Shown here: positions 3,604-19,367 of the stretch, piece after piece
How positions within the stretch are numbered: the stretch's first letter is position 1
Layout of the letters: every line of letters begins with the position of its first letter
Virus record (IMG/VR): IMGVR_UViG_3300020392_000092
Span: 1 to 22,363 of that record
Origin: a virus
Reading direction: 5' to 3' (one strand)
DNA length: 22,363 nucleotides
Position numbers and translations under genes: made by a program
Notes under the pieces: model-generated
What the model was told of the DNA's origin: nothing
Seen by the model: the letters and a program-made list of their open reading frames with translations, nothing else
The model's database searches: none

Positions 3604-5964
3604 ATGGGAGATTTTAGTTCACCAGGATATATTGAATCAGTAGGTTCTACCAAGAGAAAGACAAAAGAGGATATCTCATTTGAGAATTTAATTCCTTCTG
3701 AAATACTTGCTTCTGTTGGCGATGGTGGAATAAAAGATTTATTAAAAAGATATTATGAGTTCATGAATATGGACGAATTTCTTTATGATGAAGCTTTAAC
3801 ATTTACTGATATCGTACTAAATGGCCAAGCACAATTTAGAATATCAGATCCAGACAATAGTAACACAGAATTTTTCCAGGACTTCAACTTTGCTAATAGT
3901 ACATTAAAAGATGCAAATGGTGCAGCAATAACACAAGTAAAAAATGCTGATGGCAATTTAGAAACATTACAAAATAATGCTGCATTTATTACTATTTCAA
4001 ATGGTAATGAATTACCTGGCTCATTAGCTAATTCAACTAATCCATTAGGTAAGACATATACTATTACTGGATTACAAGATTATAATAACACATCTATCAC
4101 ATTAAGTACATCCATTAAACATTTTGTTGGGCCTGGTCCATCGTATGTGCTTAACGCTATCGAAGAAGCAATGGATATAGATCAGAATACTAGTAACTAC
4201 CTTGAGTTAATGCAGAAGGAAATCGCACAAGCTATTCCAAAAGATCTTACTACAAATAAAAGACAGCTCTATAAAAAGATAGTTGACTTCTATAAACTCA
4301 GAGGTTCAGACGATTCAGTAGATGTATTCTTTAGATTATTATTCGATGATGAAGTAGAAGTTGAGTATCCATTTGACTTTACATTAAAACCATCTGCAGG
4401 TGACTGGAGTTCTGATACAAATCAATTCATATCAACATCTGGGTTTACATCAGAAAAGAAAATAAGATTACATGATTCTAATAGATATCAAAAATATTCT
4501 TATGTTGTAAAGACTGGCCAGAATGTATCTACATGGGAAAATGTATTTAGTAAATTAGTTCATCCAGCTGGCTTTGTATTCTTTGGAGAGATTCTATTAT
4601 TACTAAACTTATTAAGAAGTGCAAATGGTGATAATACAAGAAGCACAACTTATCAATATAATGGACAGATTAGTACAGGTTATGGTGGACAAGTATTTGA
4701 TCCACCAAGATTTATAAAAGGAAAAGCCGCATTAAATACAGTTGGAGGATTTGGTAATGCAGTAACAGATGCTAAGGAAGTCGCCGCTGTTAATGCTACT
4801 GATGATTCTATTAATGATGGTAATATATTCCAGGTAATTAAAACATATCCAAGAACTAATAGACTTACTAAATCTTCAATGCCAGGATTACAGCCAGGCG
4901 TAATTGGAGTTGAAGATATTCCATTACTTGTAGAAAGTTTTGTTTCTTTATTCTTACCAGAGGCAAGAGCCAAAGTACATAAGAATGCTGTTGTATCTAT
5001 TTCGGTAGGAACAGTAGCACCCAATGTAGGAAAGATAACTAATATTGAAGTTGTCAGAAAAGGTTATGGATATTCATCAGCACCTGCAATTACAATTACA
5101 GGCGATGGTAGTAATGCAACTGCAACTGCTGTATTAAATTCAGAAGGTGAAGTTGAGTCGGTCACAATTAATAATGCAGGCAGTGGATATACACAAGGAG
5201 CAACTTCTGTTGCAATCGGTACTAATGCTAACGACGGTAAACTATCTAGGATAAATACTAATTTAATATCTGGTACCAGTGGATTATTATCTAAAGATTT
5301 TAGAAGAGCACCATCTATTGTATTAGGTGCACCAACAGCTGTAGATAATAATGGTAATTTACTTGGAACAAATGTACAGGCTACAGCTAAATTTAATTTA
5401 GTTGCTACATCAGTAAATGGCGTGGAAATGCTAAACAGAGGAAGTGGTTACACTAACTCTAATCCACCTACTGTTACATTTGCTGCTCCGTCTAGTGGAG
5501 TAACTGCAGAAGGTTTAGCAATAATAAATCCTCAGGGACAGATAGATGCAATCAGAGTTTATAAACCTGGATCAGGATATACTGAACCACCGGCTATAAC
5601 TATATCGGGTGGATCTGGTTCTGGAGCAACTACTAAAGTGTATTTAACACCAAGTAAAATATCAGGCGTATCTATTACAAATGTTGGTAATGGATATGTG
5701 TCAGACCCTAGGGTAACTCTTGGCTCTAATGCAGTAGCAGAAAAAAGAGCTAAGGATACATTAATGCATTTAGTGATACATTTAAACAACATAAATAGAA
5801 CTAACAACAATTATTTTAACTTAAAAGGAGACAGCTTTTATAATTCGGCTAAACGGTTTAATAGTAATCAAAGAATTGACCTAATAGGTTCACAAACCAT
5901 TGAAACTATCAACCAAAACTTTATAAATAGATATAACACTAGCAGTTTTATAGAAATAGATTAA
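3604..5964 (+). CDS. Probable baseplate wedge protein, gp7/gpI-like, with C-terminal G-S-G-Y repeat region
   Basis: The 786-residue protein directly follows gp6 (one base between stop and ATG), the place of gene 7 in T4 and of gpI after gpJ in P2. Residues 229-256 read FYKLRGSDDSVDVFFRLLF, then acidic DDEVEVEYP. This resembles the helix and turn of P2 gpI-type tail proteins, which are thought to share a core with the T4 gp7 N-terminus. The N-terminus is helical (LKRYYEFMN near residue 50), followed by a beta-rich insert (about 85-180). Residues about 480-710 carry five turns centred on Tyr 490, 529, 616, 659 and 698, each after a Gly-X-Gly-like motif, with 39-43 residues between most neighbours. 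T4 gp7 is longer (1032). Expected role: third chain of the wedge heterotrimer with two gp6. The functional call rests on synteny and one motif. Confidence 0.66.
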   Translation: MGDFSSPGYIESVGSTKRKTKEDISFENLIPSEILASVGDGGIKDLLKRYYEFMNMDEFLYDEALTFTDIVLNGQAQFRISDPDNSNTEFFQDFNFANSTLKDANGAAITQVKNADGNLETLQNNAAFITISNGNELPGSLANSTNPLGKTYTITGLQDYNNTSITLSTSIKHFVGPGPSYVLNAIEEAMDIDQNTSNYLELMQKEIAQAIPKDLTTNKRQLYKKIVDFYKLRGSDDSVDVFFRLLFDDEVEVEYPFDFTLKPSAGDWSSDTNQFISTSGFTSEKKIRLHDSNRYQKYSYVVKTGQNVSTWENVFSKLVHPAGFVFFGEILLLLNLLRSANGDNTRSTTYQYNGQISTGYGGQVFDPPRFIKGKAALNTVGGFGNAVTDAKEVAAVNATDDSINDGNIFQVIKTYPRTNRLTKSSMPGLQPGVIGVEDIPLLVESFVSLFLPEARAKVHKNAVVSISVGTVAPNVGKITNIEVVRKGYGYSSAPAITITGDGSNATATAVLNSEGEVESVTINNAGSGYTQGATSVAIGTNANDGKLSRINTNLISGTSGLLSKDFRRAPSIVLGAPTAVDNNGNLLGTNVQATAKFNLVATSVNGVEMLNRGSGYTNSNPPTVTFAAPSSGVTAEGLAIINPQGQIDAIRVYKPGSGYTEPPAITISGGSGSGATTKVYLTPSKISGVSITNVGNGYVSDPRVTLGSNAVAEKRAKDTLMHLVIHLNNINRTNNNYFNLKGDSFYNSAKRFNSNQRIDLIGSQTIETINQNFINRYNTSSFIEID
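5026..5732 (+). repeat. Five G-S-G-Y repeats inside the gp7-like protein
   Basis: In-frame repeats in which a turn such as KGYGYSSAP, AGSGYTQ, RGSGYTNS, PGSGYTEPP or VGNGYVSDP is followed by a beta strand (AITITGDGS, PAITISGGS, RVTLGS) and a variable strand. The key Tyr residues are 490, 529, 616, 659 and 698 of the protein, spaced 39, 87, 43 and 39, so one unit between 529 and 616 has probably diverged or been lengthened. Copies are similar in protein but not identical in DNA, so they are old repeats rather than recent duplications. Confidence 0.8.
5922..5929 (+). promoter_or_regulatory. Candidate late promoter (TATAAATA) before gp8
   Basis: An exact TATAAATA lies inside the last codons of the gp7-like gene, 48 bases before the gp8 ATG. 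The 14 bases starting here (TATAAATAGATATA) are the same as those starting at 1272 before gp25. A start a few bases downstream would give gp8 a leader of about 40 bases containing the AGGA at 5966-5969. Chance occurrence is possible in DNA this AT-rich. Confidence 0.45.
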
Positions 5965-5976
5965 TAGGATTTAGAT

Positions 5977-7389
5977 ATGGCAGCAATAATAACAACACCA
6001 TTTAGAGTTCTCAATGCAGAGAACTTTAAAGAAGATGTAGGTTCATCTTCAGTTTATCTTGGTATAGGAAAATCAGATGTATGGTCGACGAATAGTTCAG
6101 ACCTAACCGATACTATACCATTCATACCAGGCGATCATCAAGACGATATAAACGGAGCATGGTCACAAATGTTAGCATTGAAGAAGATTACCTCTTCTGA
6201 TATCTCACATGTTGTACCAAGATACGATTACGCAGACGGTGAATCATACGTCGCTTGGGATTCAAAGGATGCAGATATATATGACGAAAAGTTTTATGTT
6301 ATGACATCAGCATTTAAAGTTTACAAGTGTATTCAGAAAGGACCGGGAGCCGCGTCCAATGAACCAACACATACAAGTGCAACAATAGAACCAAACAGAA
6401 CTGACGCCGCGGCAGGTGATGGTTACAGATGGAAATACTTATACACACTAACAACTTCTGATTCAGAAAAGTTTTTAACTAAATCATTTATGCCAGTTAA
6501 AACATTGGCAATGGCACCAGCACTAGCAAGTACTGATGTCAATAAACCACAACAAGATTCACAAATAGCTTCAAGAGATCTAGCCACTGCTGCCGGTATA
6601 GAGAGATTAGTTATTGTAAATGGTGGATCTAACTATGATGCTGCTGATAACTTTACAATTAAAATAGAAGGTGATGGTACTGGAGCATCTGCAGTAGATG
6701 CTGGAGTTACAATTGTAGGCGGAGCAATAACTGCAATTGCAATGAATGCTGAAGGAACAGATTATACAAAAGCTAAAGTCACAGTAACTCATGATAATAA
6801 TTCAGGCGGAACAGCTGGTTCAGGCTGTGAAGTAAGAGCTGTATTAGCTCCTTCAACTGGACACGGAGTAGATCCAGTGAAAGAACTAGGAGCTTTCTTT
6901 ACATCAGTTAATATTCAATTAGATGGAAACGATGGAAGCGACTTTACAGTAGGAAACGATTTTAGACAAATCACATTAGTTAAAAATCCATACTCAACTG
7001 GTACAACAGTTGCAACTGCGACTACATTAAAAGCTAATAAGTATTTACAATTAGCTTCTGGCCAGAGTACATCAGGATTTGTAGTTGACCAAGTTATTCA
7101 AGGTGGATCTGGTGCTACATTAGCTAAAGCATATCTTACAGAAATAGATGACACAAACAAAAGATTATATTATTATCAAAACGATAAGACAGGATTCATG
7201 CCTTTCTTAAATAGTATGACAATTACTGGAACATTACCAAGTGGTGGTTCTGCTACATTAGCTTCATCACATATTGGTGCAGCAGAAGTAGTAGCTGGTT
7301 CTGGACAAGTTATATTCCTAGAGAATAGAGATCCAATTAGTAGATCAACAACACAAATTGAAGATATTAAGTGTATAGTAGAATTTTAA
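5977..7389 (+). CDS. gp8: Baseplate wedge protein gp8
   Basis: The 470-residue protein keeps the landmarks I recall of T4 gp8 (334 residues) in order: GKSDVWSTN (31-39; T4 GRSEPWSSN), VVPRYDY (79-85), VYKCI (115-119), GDGYRWKYLY (147-156), FRQITLVKNP (329-338), and a C-terminal VIFLENRDPI (445-454) followed by QIEDI and a short hydrophobic end. The extra length sits mainly between the WKYLY and FRQI landmarks, where residues about 205-290 hold two G-S-x-Y type repeats (Tyr 220 and 263), and between FRQI and the C-terminal motif (about 345-440). gp8 is a dimer that joins the wedge and holds the outer part of the baseplate. The ATG at 5977 has AGGA at 5966-5969 and lies 12 bases after the preceding stop. 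Confidence 0.91.
   Translation: MAAIITTPFRVLNAENFKEDVGSSSVYLGIGKSDVWSTNSSDLTDTIPFIPGDHQDDINGAWSQMLALKKITSSDISHVVPRYDYADGESYVAWDSKDADIYDEKFYVMTSAFKVYKCIQKGPGAASNEPTHTSATIEPNRTDAAAGDGYRWKYLYTLTTSDSEKFLTKSFMPVKTLAMAPALASTDVNKPQQDSQIASRDLATAAGIERLVIVNGGSNYDAADNFTIKIEGDGTGASAVDAGVTIVGGAITAIAMNAEGTDYTKAKVTVTHDNNSGGTAGSGCEVRAVLAPSTGHGVDPVKELGAFFTSVNIQLDGNDGSDFTVGNDFRQITLVKNPYSTGTTVATATTLKANKYLQLASGQSTSGFVVDQVIQGGSGATLAKAYLTEIDDTNKRLYYYQNDKTGFMPFLNSMTITGTLPSGGSATLASSHIGAAEVVAGSGQVIFLENRDPISRSTTQIEDIKCIVEF
6601..6800 (+). repeat. Two G-S-x-Y repeats inserted in gp8
   Basis: Two units, VNGGSNYDAADNFTIKIEG and AEGTDYTKAKVTVT, have turn tyrosines at residues 220 and 263, a 43-residue spacing. Both the turn and the following beta strand match the repeats in the preceding gp7-like protein. 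The units lie between conserved gp8 landmarks, so they are an addition relative to T4 gp8. Confidence 0.7.
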
Positions 7390-12987: not shown

Positions 12988-13221
12988 ATGGCAAGAAAGA
13001 AAAAAGTAGCAATAGTAAAAGAAGATACTAACTTAGTTCGTGATTTATCTACTAATGCTATTATAAATACTAATGTATCTTCTTACGAAAGAAGAATACA
13101 ACAGATGGAGATGAAAAAATCTCAAGAAGAAATAGATGCAGCACAAAGAGCTGATATAGAAGAATTAAAAGCTGATATGAAAGAAATAAAAGCAATACTA
13201 AAAAAATTAGGTGGTAAATAA
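12988..13221 (+). CDS. Small coiled-coil structural protein (77 aa)
   Basis: A 77-residue charged protein: a basic start (MARKKKVAIVKED), a short segment LVRDLSTNAIINTNVSSYE, then a long helix (about residues 32-74) with heptad-like spacing of Ile, Leu and Met (DIEELKADMKEIKAILKKL), ending in GGK. Small proteins with an 'N(A/T)AIINTN' segment and a C-terminal coil are, from memory, frequent next to large structural genes in marine T4-like phages, with no known function. It follows the giant protein by seven bases, with an AGGA overlapping that gene's stop, and its stop shares one base with the ATG of the large fibre (TAATG). This placement suggests a connector, trimerisation factor or assembly helper for one of the two big proteins. 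That role is inference. Confidence 0.8.
   Translation: MARKKKVAIVKEDTNLVRDLSTNAIINTNVSSYERRIQQMEMKKSQEEIDAAQRADIEELKADMKEIKAILKKLGGK
13062..13069 (+). promoter_or_regulatory. Candidate intragenic late promoter (TATAAATAC) before the 2048-residue fibre
   Basis: TATAAATACTAAT lies inside the 77-residue gene, about 150 bases before the fibre ATG. It is a close match to the longer T4 late consensus (TATAAATACTATT, from memory), closer than the other boxes in this window. It also encodes ordinary residues (Ile-Ile-Asn-Thr-Asn), so it may be coincidental. Confidence 0.35.
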
Positions 13222-16200
13222 TGGCTGATAACGAGCATAGAGTTTTAAAAAGTAATACCTTTGAAGATCAGAGACAAAAGGTAAATGAAGTCTCTTTTGA
13301 TGTAGGTGATAACGCTTTACTTGATAATACAAGATTAAGCGATAAAGTATTTACATATACTGCATCAGCTGGTCAGATACAATTTATAGGTAATGATAAT
13401 AATAGTGATTCATTAGTAATACAAAAACTACCAGATGTTACTATTGATAATACAGCTGGGTATATTGTTTTAGAACATGGAACAACAATTCCAGCATCAT
13501 ATGTAAATGGAGCAACTATTACTCAAAGTAGTACATATAGTGCAACCATTGAATCTGTTGTCATATTAGATAGTAAACCTAGAATATTAGTAAAAAATTC
13601 TACGGGTACATTTAGCACATCTACAAATTTAACGGTTGGTTCAGATAATATAGCTCATGCCAAAATATTGAGAATTATATCTGAAGCATTTCCAAAAGGT
13701 AGCGCAAGGGTTACCAAAAATGGTTCAGAACTTGTACAAGGATTAACTGAAGCTGGATATCACATACCAAACCATAGGGGAACTATCGCTTTAACCTCTT
13801 CTCCAACGGTAGACGATGTAACAGAAGGCGTCACAATCTATCAAACTTCTGACGGTAGCAATAAATCCACACAGGCAGATGTTGAGTCTGGTGCTACTTG
13901 GTGGGCTACAGTATATCATGCAAATACTTCAAGTATTAAAACAAAAAATAATAATGGAACATTTAGTACTAGTAGAGCTATTAGAGTACTAGGATATAAC
14001 TCATCTTCAATTGCTTCGGCAAATGTTGGGCCTCTATCTTTATTAGATACTTCAGTTTTACACTCAGTCGAATTAAATAATGAAGCTGCAAATGGTAATA
14101 CAATAAATGTTATAACTACAGATTTAGTATCGGCAATCAATGAATTACAAGACGATATCGGAACTGTAGAAAATCTAGCGACATCTACACAGGCAGATGT
14201 TGTTTCAGCAATTAATGAAATTGAAGGTGTGTTCGATGCTTCAACTAAAGAGATTAGTGCTGGCTCAAATGCATTTAATGTTACATCTGGAGCATTTACT
14301 ATTGACTCATCAGGTGATATAATATTAGATGCTGGTGATGCAGATGTATTATTAAAAGATGATGGAACAACTTATGGTTCATTAAATAATTCTGGTAATA
14401 ATTTAGTTATTAAATCTGGTACTACTACAATGCTTACAGGTAATGGAGCAAATGCTACATTCTCTGGAACAGTTACAGCAGTAGGAACTTCAGTATTTGC
14501 TAACCTAGATATATCTGGTAATGTTGATATTGATGGAACTTTAGAAACTGATGCATTATCTATTAACAGCACAGCAGTAACTTCTACTGCAGCAGAATTA
14601 AATATATTAGATGGAGCAACACTAGATGTTAATGAATTAAATATATTAGACGGTGCTACTTTAAGTACAGCTGAGTTAAATTTACTTGATGGTGTTACAT
14701 CTACCACAGATGAATTAAATATTCTTGATGGTGTAACAGCAAGTGCAGCTGATATTAATTTAGTAGATGGTATCATAAACGGAACAGTAATAGCAAATAA
14801 AGCTATCATTACAGATTCCAACAAAGATATAGCTGAAGGTAGAAACATTACTATAAGTGGAGAGCTAGATGCTGCTACTTTAGATATTAGTGGTAATGCT
14901 GATATCGATGGAATACTAGATGTTGGAAATAATATCTTACATGCTGGTAATTATACTTTAAATGCTGCATCTAAAAACTTTAAAATACAAAATGGTTCAG
15001 CTGCAGATAAGTTTACTGTAGCATCATCTTCCGGTAATACATTCGTAGGCGGTAACCTAACATTAGGCAGTGCACTTACAACAAGTGGAACTGTATTAAC
15101 AGCAACTGACCTAGATGTAGCTACAGCAATAAATCAAATAGCGGTAGCATTAGGAACAAACATTTATACTGGAAATACTGGCGATTTAATAGATGGCTCA
15201 GCCAGTGTCACAGTTGCATTAAAATTAATTGAAACAGAAATTGGTGATCCTTCATCATACGGCAATGAATCATCATTAACAAATAAAGCACAGACAATAG
15301 CTGGCGTATTAGTAAATCTTGACAATGAGACTGATGCAATACGAGCGATATCAATTAATACAGCTTCAGGATCAGGTTTAACAGGTGGTGGTAATTTATC
15401 CGCTAATAGAAATTTAGCTATTAATTTACAATCAGGTGCAACTGGCGGATTACAAATTGCTTCTAATGCTTTAAAAATAAAAGCTGGTGGTGTCACAAAT
15501 GATATGTTAGATGGCTCAATTGCTAATGGTAAATTGGCTAACTCATCTATTACAATAAACGGAACATCAGTATCACTCGGTGGAACTAGAACTTTAGTCA
15601 CAGACGATATTGCTGAAGATGGTTCACCAACTAATTTATATTTCACAAATGCTAGATGGGATACTAGATTAGGACAAAAAACTACAGACAATTTAACAGA
15701 AGGCTCATCAAATAAATATTTCACAGACGAAAGAGTAGATGATAGAGTAGCTGATTTTCTTATCGCTGGAGATGGTTTAACAAAAACAGAAGACGATGAC
15801 GATTCAGGTAATGATAGTTTAACACTCGATGTAGACTCATCAGTTGTAAGAACTTCAACTAATCAAACAATATCAGGAACAAAAACATTTACTGGTACTA
15901 TCGATTTAAGCGGGGGTAGTTTAATACTAGGTGGAGGTGCTGGTACTGATGAAACATTTAACACAGCATTCTTAACACTAGCTTCAACATCAGCTGTTGA
16001 AGGTCTAAAAATAGATCGTAGTGCAATTAGTTCAGCTTCAGTTTCTACATCAGTCGATGCAACATTACAATGGAATGAAGCTAAAGTTGGAACAGGTGCA
16101 TCTAATACATCACATAGAGCTTGGGAAGTAAAAGGATTAAGTAATGCTGCAACACCGGTTGCAACTACAGCTGATCTAGTTACTTTCTATAACGCAAAAG

Positions 16201-19200
16201 ATTTAATTGGTTCATCTAGTGATGGTTTAACTCATACATGGGATGATGATGAGACTACTGGTCAACACTTTGAGTTAGGAATTAGCGACGGTGGTATTGC
16301 AATAACTAAACTAGCAAATATAGCTACAAATAGAGTATTAGGAAGAAGTGCATCAGGTACTGGAGCTGTATCAGCAGTTCAAGTATCAGCTGGAATGATT
16401 GCTTCAAATGCAATTACAAATCCTAAAATTTTAGATAGCACAATAGAAAATGCTAAATTAGCTAATTCAAGTATAGCGGTAAACGGAACAGCCATATCAC
16501 TCGGCGGTTCTTTAACTATACAAGGTACAACTGATGAAGTAACTGTTGGAACAAGTGGCTCAACAATTACTGTAGGATTGCCAGATGATGTAGTTATTGC
16601 TGGTAACTTAACAGTAAATGGAACAACAACAACTGTAAACACAGCAACACTTGATATTGAAGATCCATTAATAAAATTAGCTAAGAATAATGGATCAGGT
16701 GATGCAGTAGATATTGGTTTATATGGATTATACGATACATCAGGAACTGATAAGTATGCTGGTATATTTAGAGATGCAACTGATAAAAAATTCCATTTAT
16801 TTAAAGACCTACAAGCAGAACCATCAACCACAGTAAATAAAGCTGGAACAGGTTACGCAGTAGCTACATTAGTAGCAAATGTAGAAGGTAATATAACAGG
16901 AAGTTCTGGAAGTTGTACAGGTAATGCAGCTACAGCAACAACGGCTGGTCATTTAACATCTACTAAAACATTTGCACTTTCAGGAGATATTACTGGTACA
17001 GTAAATGATAATCTAGCAGATGGAGTTATAATCCCAACACAAATTGGTGCCAATAAAGTTGGTATTACAGAACTTAATGTTACAGATGGTTCAGCAGGTC
17101 AAGTATTAAGAACAGACGGCAATAATAACTTATCATTTATAACATTACCTACAGGAGATACTTATGATATCTCAGTAGTTGATAGTAGTGGTATAAAATT
17201 AAGATTATCAGGTTCAGCTGGTACTACTGATGATGTAAAATTTACTGGCACAAATGGAGCTACCATTACAAGAACAGATGCAAGTACAATTAATATTGAT
17301 GCTCCGTCAGCTTATACATTACCAAACGCAAGTGCAACAGTTCCTGGTGGTATAGAACTATTTAGTAATGTCGTTCAAACAGTAGCTGGAGAAAGTGTAT
17401 CAGCAACAGCAAATAGAACATACGGATTACAAGTTAACTCAGCTCAACAAGGTGTTATTAATGTTCCATGGACAGATACAGTATACACATTACCACAAGC
17501 AACAGCTACCGTAAGAGGCGGTGTTGAATTATTTAGCAATACAGTTCAAACAGTAGCTGGTAATTCTGTATCATCAACTGCAGGTAGAACATACGGAGTA
17601 CAATTAAACTCAGATAACCAAATGGTCGTAAACGTACCATGGGTTGATACACAAAGAGCAGCACCTAATAATGGATTGTTAGATATTAATCCAGGTGCTT
17701 TAATAGACTTAACAATTGTTGGTGGAGACTTTACAGCTGATAAAGCTAGTGAAACAGATATTACAATTAATGTTGATTTAACAGAACTTACTTTAGAGAC
17801 TGCAGATATCGCAGGGTCCGATCATCTTGTTTATATTGACAACGGAACACAGAAAAAGATTGCTTTCTCAAATGTTAACTTAAGCGCATTTGATAATACA
17901 GCATCAGGATTTGTAACATCATCAGGAGTAACATCAGTTACAGGTGTATCACCTATAGCATCAGGTGGAGGAACAACTCCAGCTATTAGTATTAACCTAG
18001 ATAATTTACCAGACATGACTCAAGCATGGGATAATACCGCTGATGAATTTATTGTACTAGACAATGGAACTCAAAAGAAAAAGCTATCAACAGAAATATT
18101 TGGATCTAATGCGTTTACAAACACAACAATTCCAGCAGCTGCTAATACAGGAACACTTACACTAGATACAGCTACCGGATTAGATGGCGGAGTAAAAACA
18201 TTTGGTGCAGACCAATCAGGTGATGAAACATTTACTGTATCATTAGACTTTAATGAATTACCAGACATGACTGCAGATGTAGGAGCTACAGACCAGTTTA
18301 TTTTACTAGATGGATCCGATGAGAAAAGAAAAGCTGCTGATGAAATAAAACTATCAGTATTCAATAACGATGCAAACTTTAATAATTATGTCCATCCGAG
18401 CTATACACCAAGATCAGAAGATGAAACATTTGTAGGAGCTCAAGTACCTGATAATATAGAAATTTCAAGCGATAGTATTGGTTCTATTACAGCTCTTAAT
18501 GTAACTAAAAGAAATTTAACATTAGCAAATCTAGGTTATACTGGTGATACTAATGCTGAAGTAAACCAAAATGCATTCTCAAAAGTACAAGTTGCTAACA
18601 GTGGAGTAAATGGAACACTTCATGAAGCTGATTCAAAAACAGATACTATCACAATAAATGCTGGTACTAATTTAAGTATAGTTGATGGAGTAGCTGATTA
18701 CTTTACAATTAATAATGATATTACTGCAGCTTATAATAGAGTAAGAATATCAAACTCAGCTGGTACAACTATTGCAACAGACACAGCATCAGGTATTACT
18801 GATGTTATTCATTTTAGAGCTAAAGCTGGTGTTACACTCACAGACGAAGGAAGTGGAATATTTGGAATAGCTGTAAACTCAGACCAAAGAGGTAATGTAA
18901 CTCAATTCGGACCAGACACAAATGACTATATAGTTGTTGATAGTAATTCTGCGGACTTCTTCCTTGATGGCGTCAGAGATATGTCACTAGAGAATGATGG
19001 AGAGCTTCATGTACGAGGAGATGTTATTGCATTCTCTACAACAATTACTTCCGATCAAAAACTTAAAGAGAATATTAAAACAGTTGATAATCCAATAGAA
19101 AAAGTAATGGCACTATCAGGTGTTACATTTAATTGGAAAGAAAACGGTAAAGCATCAGCTGGTGTTATAGCACAAGATGTTGAAGAAGTATTACCAAGTG

Positions 19201-19367
19201 CAGTAAAAGAAGTAGATAATATGGATAAAACAGATACACATAAAGTTGTGGACTATAACCAACTATCTGCTCTATTCATAGAATCAATAAAAGAATTAAA
19301 ACACGAGAACGAGCTCTTAAAGGCTGAGATTGAAAGCCTAAAAGATATAAATAAAGGTATAGAATAA
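13221..19367 (+). CDS. Large tail fibre with C-terminal S74-type self-cleaving chaperone
   Basis: This 2048-residue protein has a modular fibre layout. The N-terminal part (residues 1-250; FEDQRQKVNEVSFDVGDNAL near 13-32) probably attaches to the baseplate. Five 13-residue ELNILDG repeats lie at about 457-518, and NLYFTNAR and NKYFTDER motifs at 805 and 831. A VGLPDDV...GNLTVNG module spans about 1118-1203. Two tandem 57-residue repeats fill 1365-1478, and three D-x-(F/L)-hydrophobic-LD repeats lie at 1534, 1608 and 1691. The end (1944-2048) is an intramolecular chaperone: SDQKLKENIK with Ser1944 and Lys1949 at the catalytic dyad spacing, GVIAQDVEEVLPSAV, VDYNQL and a final coiled coil. In this family the domain guides trimer folding and is released by cleavage just before the Ser. 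The ATG overlaps the upstream stop by one base. Host receptor binding is the likely role. Confidence 0.9.
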   Translation: MADNEHRVLKSNTFEDQRQKVNEVSFDVGDNALLDNTRLSDKVFTYTASAGQIQFIGNDNNSDSLVIQKLPDVTIDNTAGYIVLEHGTTIPASYVNGATITQSSTYSATIESVVILDSKPRILVKNSTGTFSTSTNLTVGSDNIAHAKILRIISEAFPKGSARVTKNGSELVQGLTEAGYHIPNHRGTIALTSSPTVDDVTEGVTIYQTSDGSNKSTQADVESGATWWATVYHANTSSIKTKNNNGTFSTSRAIRVLGYNSSSIASANVGPLSLLDTSVLHSVELNNEAANGNTINVITTDLVSAINELQDDIGTVENLATSTQADVVSAINEIEGVFDASTKEISAGSNAFNVTSGAFTIDSSGDIILDAGDADVLLKDDGTTYGSLNNSGNNLVIKSGTTTMLTGNGANATFSGTVTAVGTSVFANLDISGNVDIDGTLETDALSINSTAVTSTAAELNILDGATLDVNELNILDGATLSTAELNLLDGVTSTTDELNILDGVTASAADINLVDGIINGTVIANKAIITDSNKDIAEGRNITISGELDAATLDISGNADIDGILDVGNNILHAGNYTLNAASKNFKIQNGSAADKFTVASSSGNTFVGGNLTLGSALTTSGTVLTATDLDVATAINQIAVALGTNIYTGNTGDLIDGSASVTVALKLIETEIGDPSSYGNESSLTNKAQTIAGVLVNLDNETDAIRAISINTASGSGLTGGGNLSANRNLAINLQSGATGGLQIASNALKIKAGGVTNDMLDGSIANGKLANSSITINGTSVSLGGTRTLVTDDIAEDGSPTNLYFTNARWDTRLGQKTTDNLTEGSSNKYFTDERVDDRVADFLIAGDGLTKTEDDDDSGNDSLTLDVDSSVVRTSTNQTISGTKTFTGTIDLSGGSLILGGGAGTDETFNTAFLTLASTSAVEGLKIDRSAISSASVSTSVDATLQWNEAKVGTGASNTSHRAWEVKGLSNAATPVATTADLVTFYNAKDLIGSSSDGLTHTWDDDETTGQHFELGISDGGIAITKLANIATNRVLGRSASGTGAVSAVQVSAGMIASNAITNPKILDSTIENAKLANSSIAVNGTAISLGGSLTIQGTTDEVTVGTSGSTITVGLPDDVVIAGNLTVNGTTTTVNTATLDIEDPLIKLAKNNGSGDAVDIGLYGLYDTSGTDKYAGIFRDATDKKFHLFKDLQAEPSTTVNKAGTGYAVATLVANVEGNITGSSGSCTGNAATATTAGHLTSTKTFALSGDITGTVNDNLADGVIIPTQIGANKVGITELNVTDGSAGQVLRTDGNNNLSFITLPTGDTYDISVVDSSGIKLRLSGSAGTTDDVKFTGTNGATITRTDASTINIDAPSAYTLPNASATVPGGIELFSNVVQTVAGESVSATANRTYGLQVNSAQQGVINVPWTDTVYTLPQATATVRGGVELFSNTVQTVAGNSVSSTAGRTYGVQLNSDNQMVVNVPWVDTQRAAPNNGLLDINPGALIDLTIVGGDFTADKASETDITINVDLTELTLETADIAGSDHLVYIDNGTQKKIAFSNVNLSAFDNTASGFVTSSGVTSVTGVSPIASGGGTTPAISINLDNLPDMTQAWDNTADEFIVLDNGTQKKKLSTEIFGSNAFTNTTIPAAANTGTLTLDTATGLDGGVKTFGADQSGDETFTVSLDFNELPDMTADVGATDQFILLDGSDEKRKAADEIKLSVFNNDANFNNYVHPSYTPRSEDETFVGAQVPDNIEISSDSIGSITALNVTKRNLTLANLGYTGDTNAEVNQNAFSKVQVANSGVNGTLHEADSKTDTITINAGTNLSIVDGVADYFTINNDITAAYNRVRISNSAGTTIATDTASGITDVIHFRAKAGVTLTDEGSGIFGIAVNSDQRGNVTQFGPDTNDYIVVDSNSADFFLDGVRDMSLENDGELHVRGDVIAFSTTITSDQKLKENIKTVDNPIEKVMALSGVTFNWKENGKASAGVIAQDVEEVLPSAVKEVDNMDKTDTHKVVDYNQLSALFIESIKELKHENELLKAEIESLKDINKGIE
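14589..14777 (+). repeat. Five 13-residue (39-base) ELNILDG repeats in the large fibre
   Basis: Units read AELNILDGAT, NELNILDGAT, AELNLLDGVT, DELNILDGVT and a diverged ADINLVDGI. The first residue of each core is at 459, 472, 485, 498 and 511, an exact 13-residue period. The DNA of the copies differs at third positions, so the period is kept by protein selection and not by recent duplication. Similar repeats are common in phage fibres and probably form turns of a triple beta-spiral or helix. Confidence 0.92.
17313..17654 (+). repeat. Tandem 57-residue (171-base) duplication in the large fibre
   Basis: Unit 1 is 17313-17483 (residues 1365-1421) and unit 2 is 17484-17654 (1422-1478), directly adjoining with no gap. 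Each begins YTLP, contains GG(I/V)ELFSN(V/T)VQTVAG, RTYG(L/V)Q and ends NVPW(T/V)DT. About two thirds of the residues agree by eye, and no insertions are needed. It is a clean whole-module duplication, likely lengthening the fibre shaft by one domain. Confidence 0.9.
17820..18368 (+). repeat. Three degenerate modules with a D-(H/E/Q)-hydrophobic-(I/L)D core
   Basis: Cores read DHLVYIDNGTQKK (from residue 1534), DEFIVLDNGTQKK (from 1608) and DQFILLDGSDEKRK (from 1691), spaced 74 and 83 residues. The second and third are preceded by LPDMT. The first and third are followed by a helix ending LS(A/V)F(D/N)N. They follow the 57-residue repeats and appear to be another shaft domain series. Confidence 0.75.
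19050..19364 (+). other. S74-type intramolecular chaperone domain of the large fibre
   Basis: Codons 1944-2048 encode the chaperone. The start SDQKLK has Ser and Lys five residues apart, as in the endosialidase chaperone family where this pair performs self-cleavage before the Ser. GVIAQDVEEVLP and VDYNQLSALFIESIKEL are the other family landmarks. Cleavage would leave a mature fibre of about 1943 residues. Both catalytic residues are present, so an active domain is expected. Confidence 0.9.
19346..19353 (+). promoter_or_regulatory. Candidate late promoter (TATAAATA) before the 117-aa gene
   Basis: An exact TATAAATA lies in the last codons of the large fibre, 13 bases before the next ATG at 19367. 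It could start a transcript for the small-protein and second-fibre cassette, but the leader would be only a few bases long. It is also part of the codons for the lysine-rich fibre end, so chance is possible. Confidence 0.35.

Follow-up and report, generated by a model that had tools for sequence, protein, structure and literature searches.

A paired G-x-x-Y module in two baseplate wedge proteins of an ocean T4-like phage and its probable kinship with domain I of the T4 tail sheath protein

The stretch of DNA analyzed here, called the window below, is the whole of IMG/VR record IMGVR_UViG_3300020392_000092, 22,363 bases from a T4-like myovirus, an ocean virus of bacteria. Two adjacent genes in it encode baseplate wedge proteins, one gp7-like and the other gp8, and both proteins carry repeat units of about 40 residues that are marked by a G-x-x-Y turn and come in pairs. 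The module is common in marine T4-like phages. Domain I of the T4 tail sheath protein gp18 is most likely a diverged member of the same family. With rather less certainty, the module can be described as an old and promiscuous component of virion surfaces, one that probably docks fibers or other partners.

A paired repeat module in the gp7-like protein and gp8

The two proteins and their repeat units lie in the window as follows.

3604..5964, + strand: gp7-like baseplate wedge protein, 786 aa (PF23786, E 7.2e-9; hhalign to T4 gp7 730-760, E 1.6e-5)
5029..5145, + strand: gp7 unit 1, residues 476-514, turn Tyr 490 (GYGY); from motif positions, unit profile, gp7 model, and alignment
5146..5262, + strand: gp7 unit 2, residues 515-553, turn Tyr 529 (GSGY); from motif positions, unit profile, gp7 model, and alignment
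5263..5409, + strand: putative degenerate gp7 unit 3, residues 554-602, turn Tyr position occupied by F566; missed by the unit profile in the window
5410..5538, + strand: gp7 unit 4, residues 603-645, turn Tyr 616 (GSGY); first half of the gp18 domain I match
5539..5655, + strand: gp7 unit 5, residues 646-684, turn Tyr 659 (GSGY); second half of the gp18 domain I match
5656..5739, + strand: gp7 unit 6, residues 685-712, turn Tyr 698 (GNGY); G695 and Y698 in 34/34 rows of the gp7 alignment
5977..7389, + strand: gp8 baseplate wedge protein, 470 aa (PF09215, E 3.6e-23; phrog_438, E 4.8e-103; T4 gp8 1n7z, Z 18.4)
6592..6723, + strand: gp8 unit 1, residues 206-249, turn Tyr 220 (GSNY); from motif position, unit profile, gp8 model, and structural match
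6724..6852, + strand: gp8 unit 2, residues 250-292, turn Tyr 263 (GTDY); from motif position, unit profile, gp8 model, and structural match

The original prediction, made from the letters of the window, had placed turn tyrosines at residues 490, 529, 616, 659, and 698 of the gp7-like protein and at 220 and 263 of gp8, and that is exactly where they lie. It had also described a G-S-G-Y repeat with a spacing of about 40 residues over positions 5026-6800, and here some adjustment is needed. G-S-G-Y in the strict sense holds for three of the seven units, the true signature being G-x-x-Y. The spacing is right for steps of 39, 43, and 39 residues in gp7 and of 43 in gp8, with one further step of 87 in gp7, and an end at 6800 cuts the second gp8 unit, which reaches about 6852. 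What occupies the 87-residue gap? It is filled by a putative degenerate sixth unit, third in order, in which F566 stands at a position with Y in 32 of the 34 rows of the gp7 alignment and F in 2, four residues ahead of an invariant P570. That alignment (A2) holds 34 of 49 gp7-like relatives, the 15 rows longer than 830 aa having been left out.

Is this one module common to both proteins, as had been claimed? The gp8 set for this question comprised 45 of 79 complete proteins after a 92 percent identity cut (2 of 81 were open-ended and dropped), and the gp7 set comprised 49 of 80 (1 of 81 dropped). A profile of 182 gp7 units matches 32 of the 45 nonredundant gp8 proteins, missing the gp8 of the window itself, which is a weak copy; among 270 reversed or shuffled controls it matches none. 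In the other direction, a profile of gp8 units matches 40 of the 49 gp7-like proteins and none of 294 controls, and hhalign aligns gp7 pairs with gp8 pairs at a probability of 99.1 and an E value of 6.5e-19. The claim of one shared module is upheld by these reciprocal matches. G, T, S, and A are overrepresented in the module, as they would be if glycine-rich, low-complexity sequence had arisen twice by convergence. However, the negative controls (including 0/870 reversed open reading frames [ORFs] in a scan described below), the hhalign result, and the fold shared by the models of the two proteins make such convergence hardly credible. Chance glycine-rich similarity was accordingly rejected.

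The module is cleaner in the relatives than in the window proteins. The gp7 consensus across relatives is GSGYTxxPTxTISG, and that of gp8 contains GGxGYxSxPTVTITGDGTGATATAT. In gp8, G232, G234, and G260 are found in 45/45 proteins and Y263 in 44/45. By profile, gp8 carries two units in 42 of the 45, and the gp7-like proteins carry from two to seven among the 49 relatives. T4 gp8 is indeed without the insert, as had been stated: hhalign of the gp8 family to T4 gp8 ends at residue 175, and between two shared landmarks the window gp8 exceeds T4 gp8 by about 95 residues. The window gp8 model shares the T4 gp8 fold (1n7z, Z 18.4 over 254 residues), in keeping with its family profile.

How might the units fold? 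In the AlphaFold model of gp8, which has a mean predicted local distance difference test (pLDDT) score of 83, the module scores 88-95 and consists of six strands (208-215, 225-232, 235-247, 250-261, 266-273, and 285-290). The gp7-like model is poor overall (mean pLDDT, 61); its repeat region, 451-710, scores 72-92 except at 551-570 (53 and 70), and residues 601-680 score 88-92. As predicted, each unit of about 40 residues comprises three strands, with the G-x-x-Y turn following the first, and a pair of units makes up a six-stranded domain. Behind its core the gp7-like protein has an array of such domains, and gp8 has one, inserted in a T4-gp8-like fold.

Kinship with domain I of T4 gp18

Had the module been spurious, its units might have been modeled with unrelated folds in the two proteins. 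Instead, the models are confident over the repeats, and both match the same residues of T4 gp18 domain I. Residues 605-681 of the gp7-like protein fall on gp18 99-186 (PDB 3foa) with Z 6.9 and a root mean square deviation (rmsd) of 2.6 over 72 residues, ranking first of all rows. Residues 209-290 of gp8 fall on the same stretch with Z 5.9 and an rmsd of 2.8 over 74 residues. Two separate models, one for each protein, therefore converge on one domain and one stretch of residues in it. The start offsets (605 and 209 against 99) set Y616 and Y220 on gp18 Y110, provided that no gap lies between. Like the modules, domain I (PDB 3FOA and 3FO8; residues 98-188) is a protruding insertion domain of about 90 residues, and it has a GSNY turn at the same start offset as the module turns. 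It sits on the sheath, whereas the gp7 and gp8 modules belong to wedge proteins, and its second turn is not conserved among gp18 relatives.

A bridge also exists at the level of sequence. Domain I matches phrog_26741 at E 6.6e-5, and this family is also matched by the window gp7-like protein (1e-28) and by its first module fragment (0.0019). A domain I profile built on 16 of 17 sequences (L099 was excluded as too short) scores the gp7-like protein of Stenotrophomonas phage Moby at 20.6 bits, the best of 2000 shuffles reaching 4.5. The Moby protein matches the unit profile at E 0.002, has turn tyrosines at 231, 270, and 312, and is encoded in the order gp25, gp6, gp7-like, gp8. Judging by its length of 503 aa, it most likely belongs to phrog_26741 (497 positions).

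Several results pull the other way. Z scores of 5.9-6.9 fall in a range that can mean no more than a common arrangement. Domain I is described as having an alpha-helix, and none is present within 206-292 of the gp8 module model. Direct hhalign of domain I against the gp7 and gp8 modules gives probabilities of 0.33 and 0.20 percent, within the shuffled controls, and the domain I profile matches 0 of the 48 bacterial-genome proteins considered below. Elsewhere in the analysis, a Foldseek search with the gp7 model gave no PDB match at E 0.001 or better, and a PDB profile search with the gp8 modules gave nothing credible (best E, 0.13).

According to the published account (PMC3004832), domain I of T4 gp18 protrudes, touches the baseplate, and holds the retracted long tail fibers, and the mutations G106S, S175F, and A178V in it inhibit tail-fiber retraction. 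Only in a numbering without the initial Met do all three mutated letters fit the T4 sequence, and G106 then falls on the first glycine of the GSNY turn. Because the link to domain I ties the module to a solved structure and a fiber-retraction phenotype, the function of the module is directly testable. A separate observation concerns the T4 reference record (L086:28537-30516), in which gp18 146-156 reads PTGKNYAKAKE where five relatives of 98-99 percent identity have PTAKIIAKAKE. The reading in that record or strain looks like the product of a local compensated frameshift.

Distribution of the module and its history in gp7 and gp8

Where else is the module found? Fragments of the gp7-like protein containing nothing but the module match twelve PHROG families at E 1e-5 or better. 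These are annotated as wedge (708, 2885, and 438), hub and lysozyme (1922), tail fiber (5342 and 17885), head closure (460), and virion structural proteins (701, 19630, 30655, and 4406), with one of unassigned function (22827). Since the matches cross from gp7 to gp14 to fibers, virion proteins should not be named from this module alone.

A joint profile of gp7 and gp8 units was also run on annotated genomes, covering the window, the whole genome of Pelagibacter phage HTVC008M, 50 kb of Mosig, 100 kb of Synechococcus phage S-ShM2, and 50 kb of T4. It reported 8 of 870 ORFs and none of 870 reversed ORFs. The eight are the two window proteins, the gp7-like protein and gp8 of HTVC008M, the gp7-like protein of Mosig, and three proteins of S-ShM2 (a 6198-residue protein, the gp7-like protein, and gp14). 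No unit was reported in the T4 stretch, which spans genes 5 to 18 and part of 29. Since the two window proteins had themselves gone into the profile, only the other phages count as independent here. The 6198-residue virion structural protein of S-ShM2 (L084:31319-49915) is encoded just after gp6 and carries, by profile, twelve units in several clusters.

Loci of bacterial or archaeal genomes carry the module as well. Among the matches listed, 48 of 48 proteins contain one unit or more, which the way they were chosen made likely. Pfam, run on 10 of the 48, identified four tail sheath proteins (from Pseudanabaena, Nostoc, Pseudovibrio, and Rhizobium loci), a lambda-like tail tube, a Gp13-like capsid protein, a multicopper oxidase, and a beta-helix protein, leaving two without a family. 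The cyanobacterial sheaths have near-perfect GxGY units, six in Nostoc foliaceum (L140:2245-4356) and four in Pseudanabaena (L125:2242-4149), which precede the matched part of the sheath domain. Two units each are present in the tail tube of Pseudomonas petrae (L150:2521-3273) and in the capsid protein of an Ignavibacteria bin (L151:1030-2376). The multicopper oxidase, from a Bryobacterales genome bin (L118:1297-4827), carries four, which implies that the module is not limited to virions.

Promiscuous accessory domains of virions are already known as a kind. Phage Ig-like domains, of Hoc and others, are small beta domains found across a wide range of unrelated proteins of the virion. The gp7/gp8 module resembles them in this spread; unlike them, it has a different signature and two units per domain. 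The gp7-like protein and gp8, modules included, gave no Pfam Ig-family match at E up to 1, although a domain with an Ig fold may lack a profile match. No Pfam or NCBIfam model matched the module in the proteins scanned, and a search of the open PMC literature found neither this repeat described in phage proteins nor its link to gp18 domain I.

Did the module move between the adjacent genes, as had been thought likely? Over 44 genomes, the similarity of gp7 to gp8 units is 0.178 within a genome and 0.179 between genomes, with a mean rank of 0.505. Recent movement is thus contradicted, as within-genome similarity is no higher, and ongoing exchange or gene conversion was rejected on the same figures. 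The same gp8 unit compared across genomes has a similarity of 0.513; the two gp8 units of one genome score 0.187, as different from each other as gp7 is from gp8. A tree was built from 60 two-unit domains, namely every second row of alignment A3 (34 of 67) and of the gp8-pair alignment A4 (21 of 42) plus 5 others. A4 holds 42 of 43 picked rows, L029 having been omitted because the motif picker took the wrong pair. All 21 gp8 rows form one clade (97/77), the gp7 rows split largely by position, and modules of the sheath, gp14, and the tail tube fall among the gp7 rows. The tree rests on few columns, and many of its forks are open. With weak support (83/54) it makes the gp8 clade the sister of the first gp7 pair, and so the part of the original idea that survives is a possible ancient transfer.

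Possible roles of the module and the neighboring genes

What might the modules do? As mentioned, gp18 domain I protrudes and touches the baseplate, and it holds fibers at loops that include the GxxY turn; the docking hypothesis rests on these properties. The modules of gp7 and gp8 would, on this hypothesis, serve as docking patches around the baseplate for fibers or neighboring proteins. Both that role and the position of the modules on the particle are plausible but somewhat doubtful. The idea that the modules decorate the baseplate surface appears likely in a more specific form, docking by analogy with T4 gp18 domain I.

Some of the evidence sits uneasily with docking and with a broadly shared module. 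The conserved G, Y, and P residues look structural rather than ligand-binding, and the gp8 proteins of S-ShM2 and Mosig were not reported by the unit profile at the threshold used. Dpo31, the tailspike of the marine podovirus Carin-1 (PDB 8CK1), counts on both sides. The gp7 profile matches it at E 0.0024 for the whole sequence, the sole PDB match below 0.01, and its two GxGY units, found by profile, lie inside a protruding inserted domain, D3* (434-536), as a surface module would. Its authors call D3* Ig-like and liken it to sugar-binding domains, pointing to another role (PMC13317679). D3* differs from the wedge modules in being part of a podovirus depolymerase spike (PMC13317679).

Could the module then be a weak carbohydrate-binding adhesin that attaches the virion to polysaccharide of the host or the environment, a role proposed for phage Ig-like domains? 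D3* adjoins the depolymerase domain and has, its authors note, a distant DALI similarity to sugar-binding domains (PMC13317679), and several bacterial carriers are long multi-unit proteins. That similarity is weak, however (Z 2.9 and 2.8; PMC13317679). Moreover, the tail tube, the tail sheaths, the multicopper oxidase, and neck gp14 also carry the module and need no sugar binding, and the partners reported for T4 domain I are proteins (PMC3004832), all of which makes an adhesin a somewhat unlikely account. Inert spacers or stabilizers that thicken surface proteins and have no specific partner are unlikely to a further degree. The conserved positions are structural, and gp7-like proteins range between 2 and 7 units by profile, as filler would, but gp8 is kept at two units in 42/45 proteins with the nearly invariant G232, G234, G260, and Y263, and point mutations in T4 domain I give a fiber phenotype (PMC3004832).

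The suggestion that gp7 modules pair with gp8 modules within the wedge, the module having moved between the adjacent genes, is the least convincing of these three and quite improbable. T4 gp8 does contact gp7 (PMC3004832), and the weak fork described above joins the gp8 clade to the first gp7 pair. Against it stand the equal similarities within and between genomes and the single gp8 clade. A private pairing is at odds with the spread of the module over twelve PHROG families and over sheath, tail tube, and capsid proteins, many carriers lying outside the wedge, and with gp7 unit numbers of two to seven facing a nearly constant two in gp8.

Docking might be more general still. It can be proposed, tentatively, that a single mobile domain of two units acts as the docking piece of head, neck, sheath, baseplate, and fiber proteins in widely differing tailed phages and in phage-like particles. 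In T4 the surviving copy would be gp18 domain I, and the GxxY turn would be a general docking site for fibers or other partners, its placement shifting between lineages, from the sheath in T4 and the cyanobacterial sheaths to the wedge and neck in marine T4-like phages.

The gene order in the window is gp25, gp6, gp7-like, gp8, followed by a large protein that corresponds to one annotated VrlC in relatives, and the order in HTVC008M is identical. The nearest named-phage relatives of the window gp8 are gp8 of Pelagibacter and Methylophilales phages. The core of the gp7-like protein resembles the C-terminal part of T4 gp7 over 31 hhalign columns, the best alignment being the one to 730-760 listed above. 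Homology over the full length of T4 gp7 (1032 residues) was not found; for most of that protein, its N-terminal part included, no counterpart turned up here.

The gp7-like orthologue in HTVC008M (I899_gp055, L081:33435-36485) bears the RefSeq name head closure Hc2. So does I899_gp074 of the same phage, which sits between the head-tail adaptor and tail sheath stabilizer genes, and the label on the gp7-like protein therefore looks like an annotation error. Several Vibrio, Serratia, Salmonella, and Shigella phages have gp7-like matches that likewise bear the Hc2 label. Farther along, window positions 13221-19367 encode a 2048-residue protein with repeated LNILDG-type peptides, the end of which we take to resemble a peptidase S74 intramolecular chaperone, and shorter fiber-like ORFs come after it.

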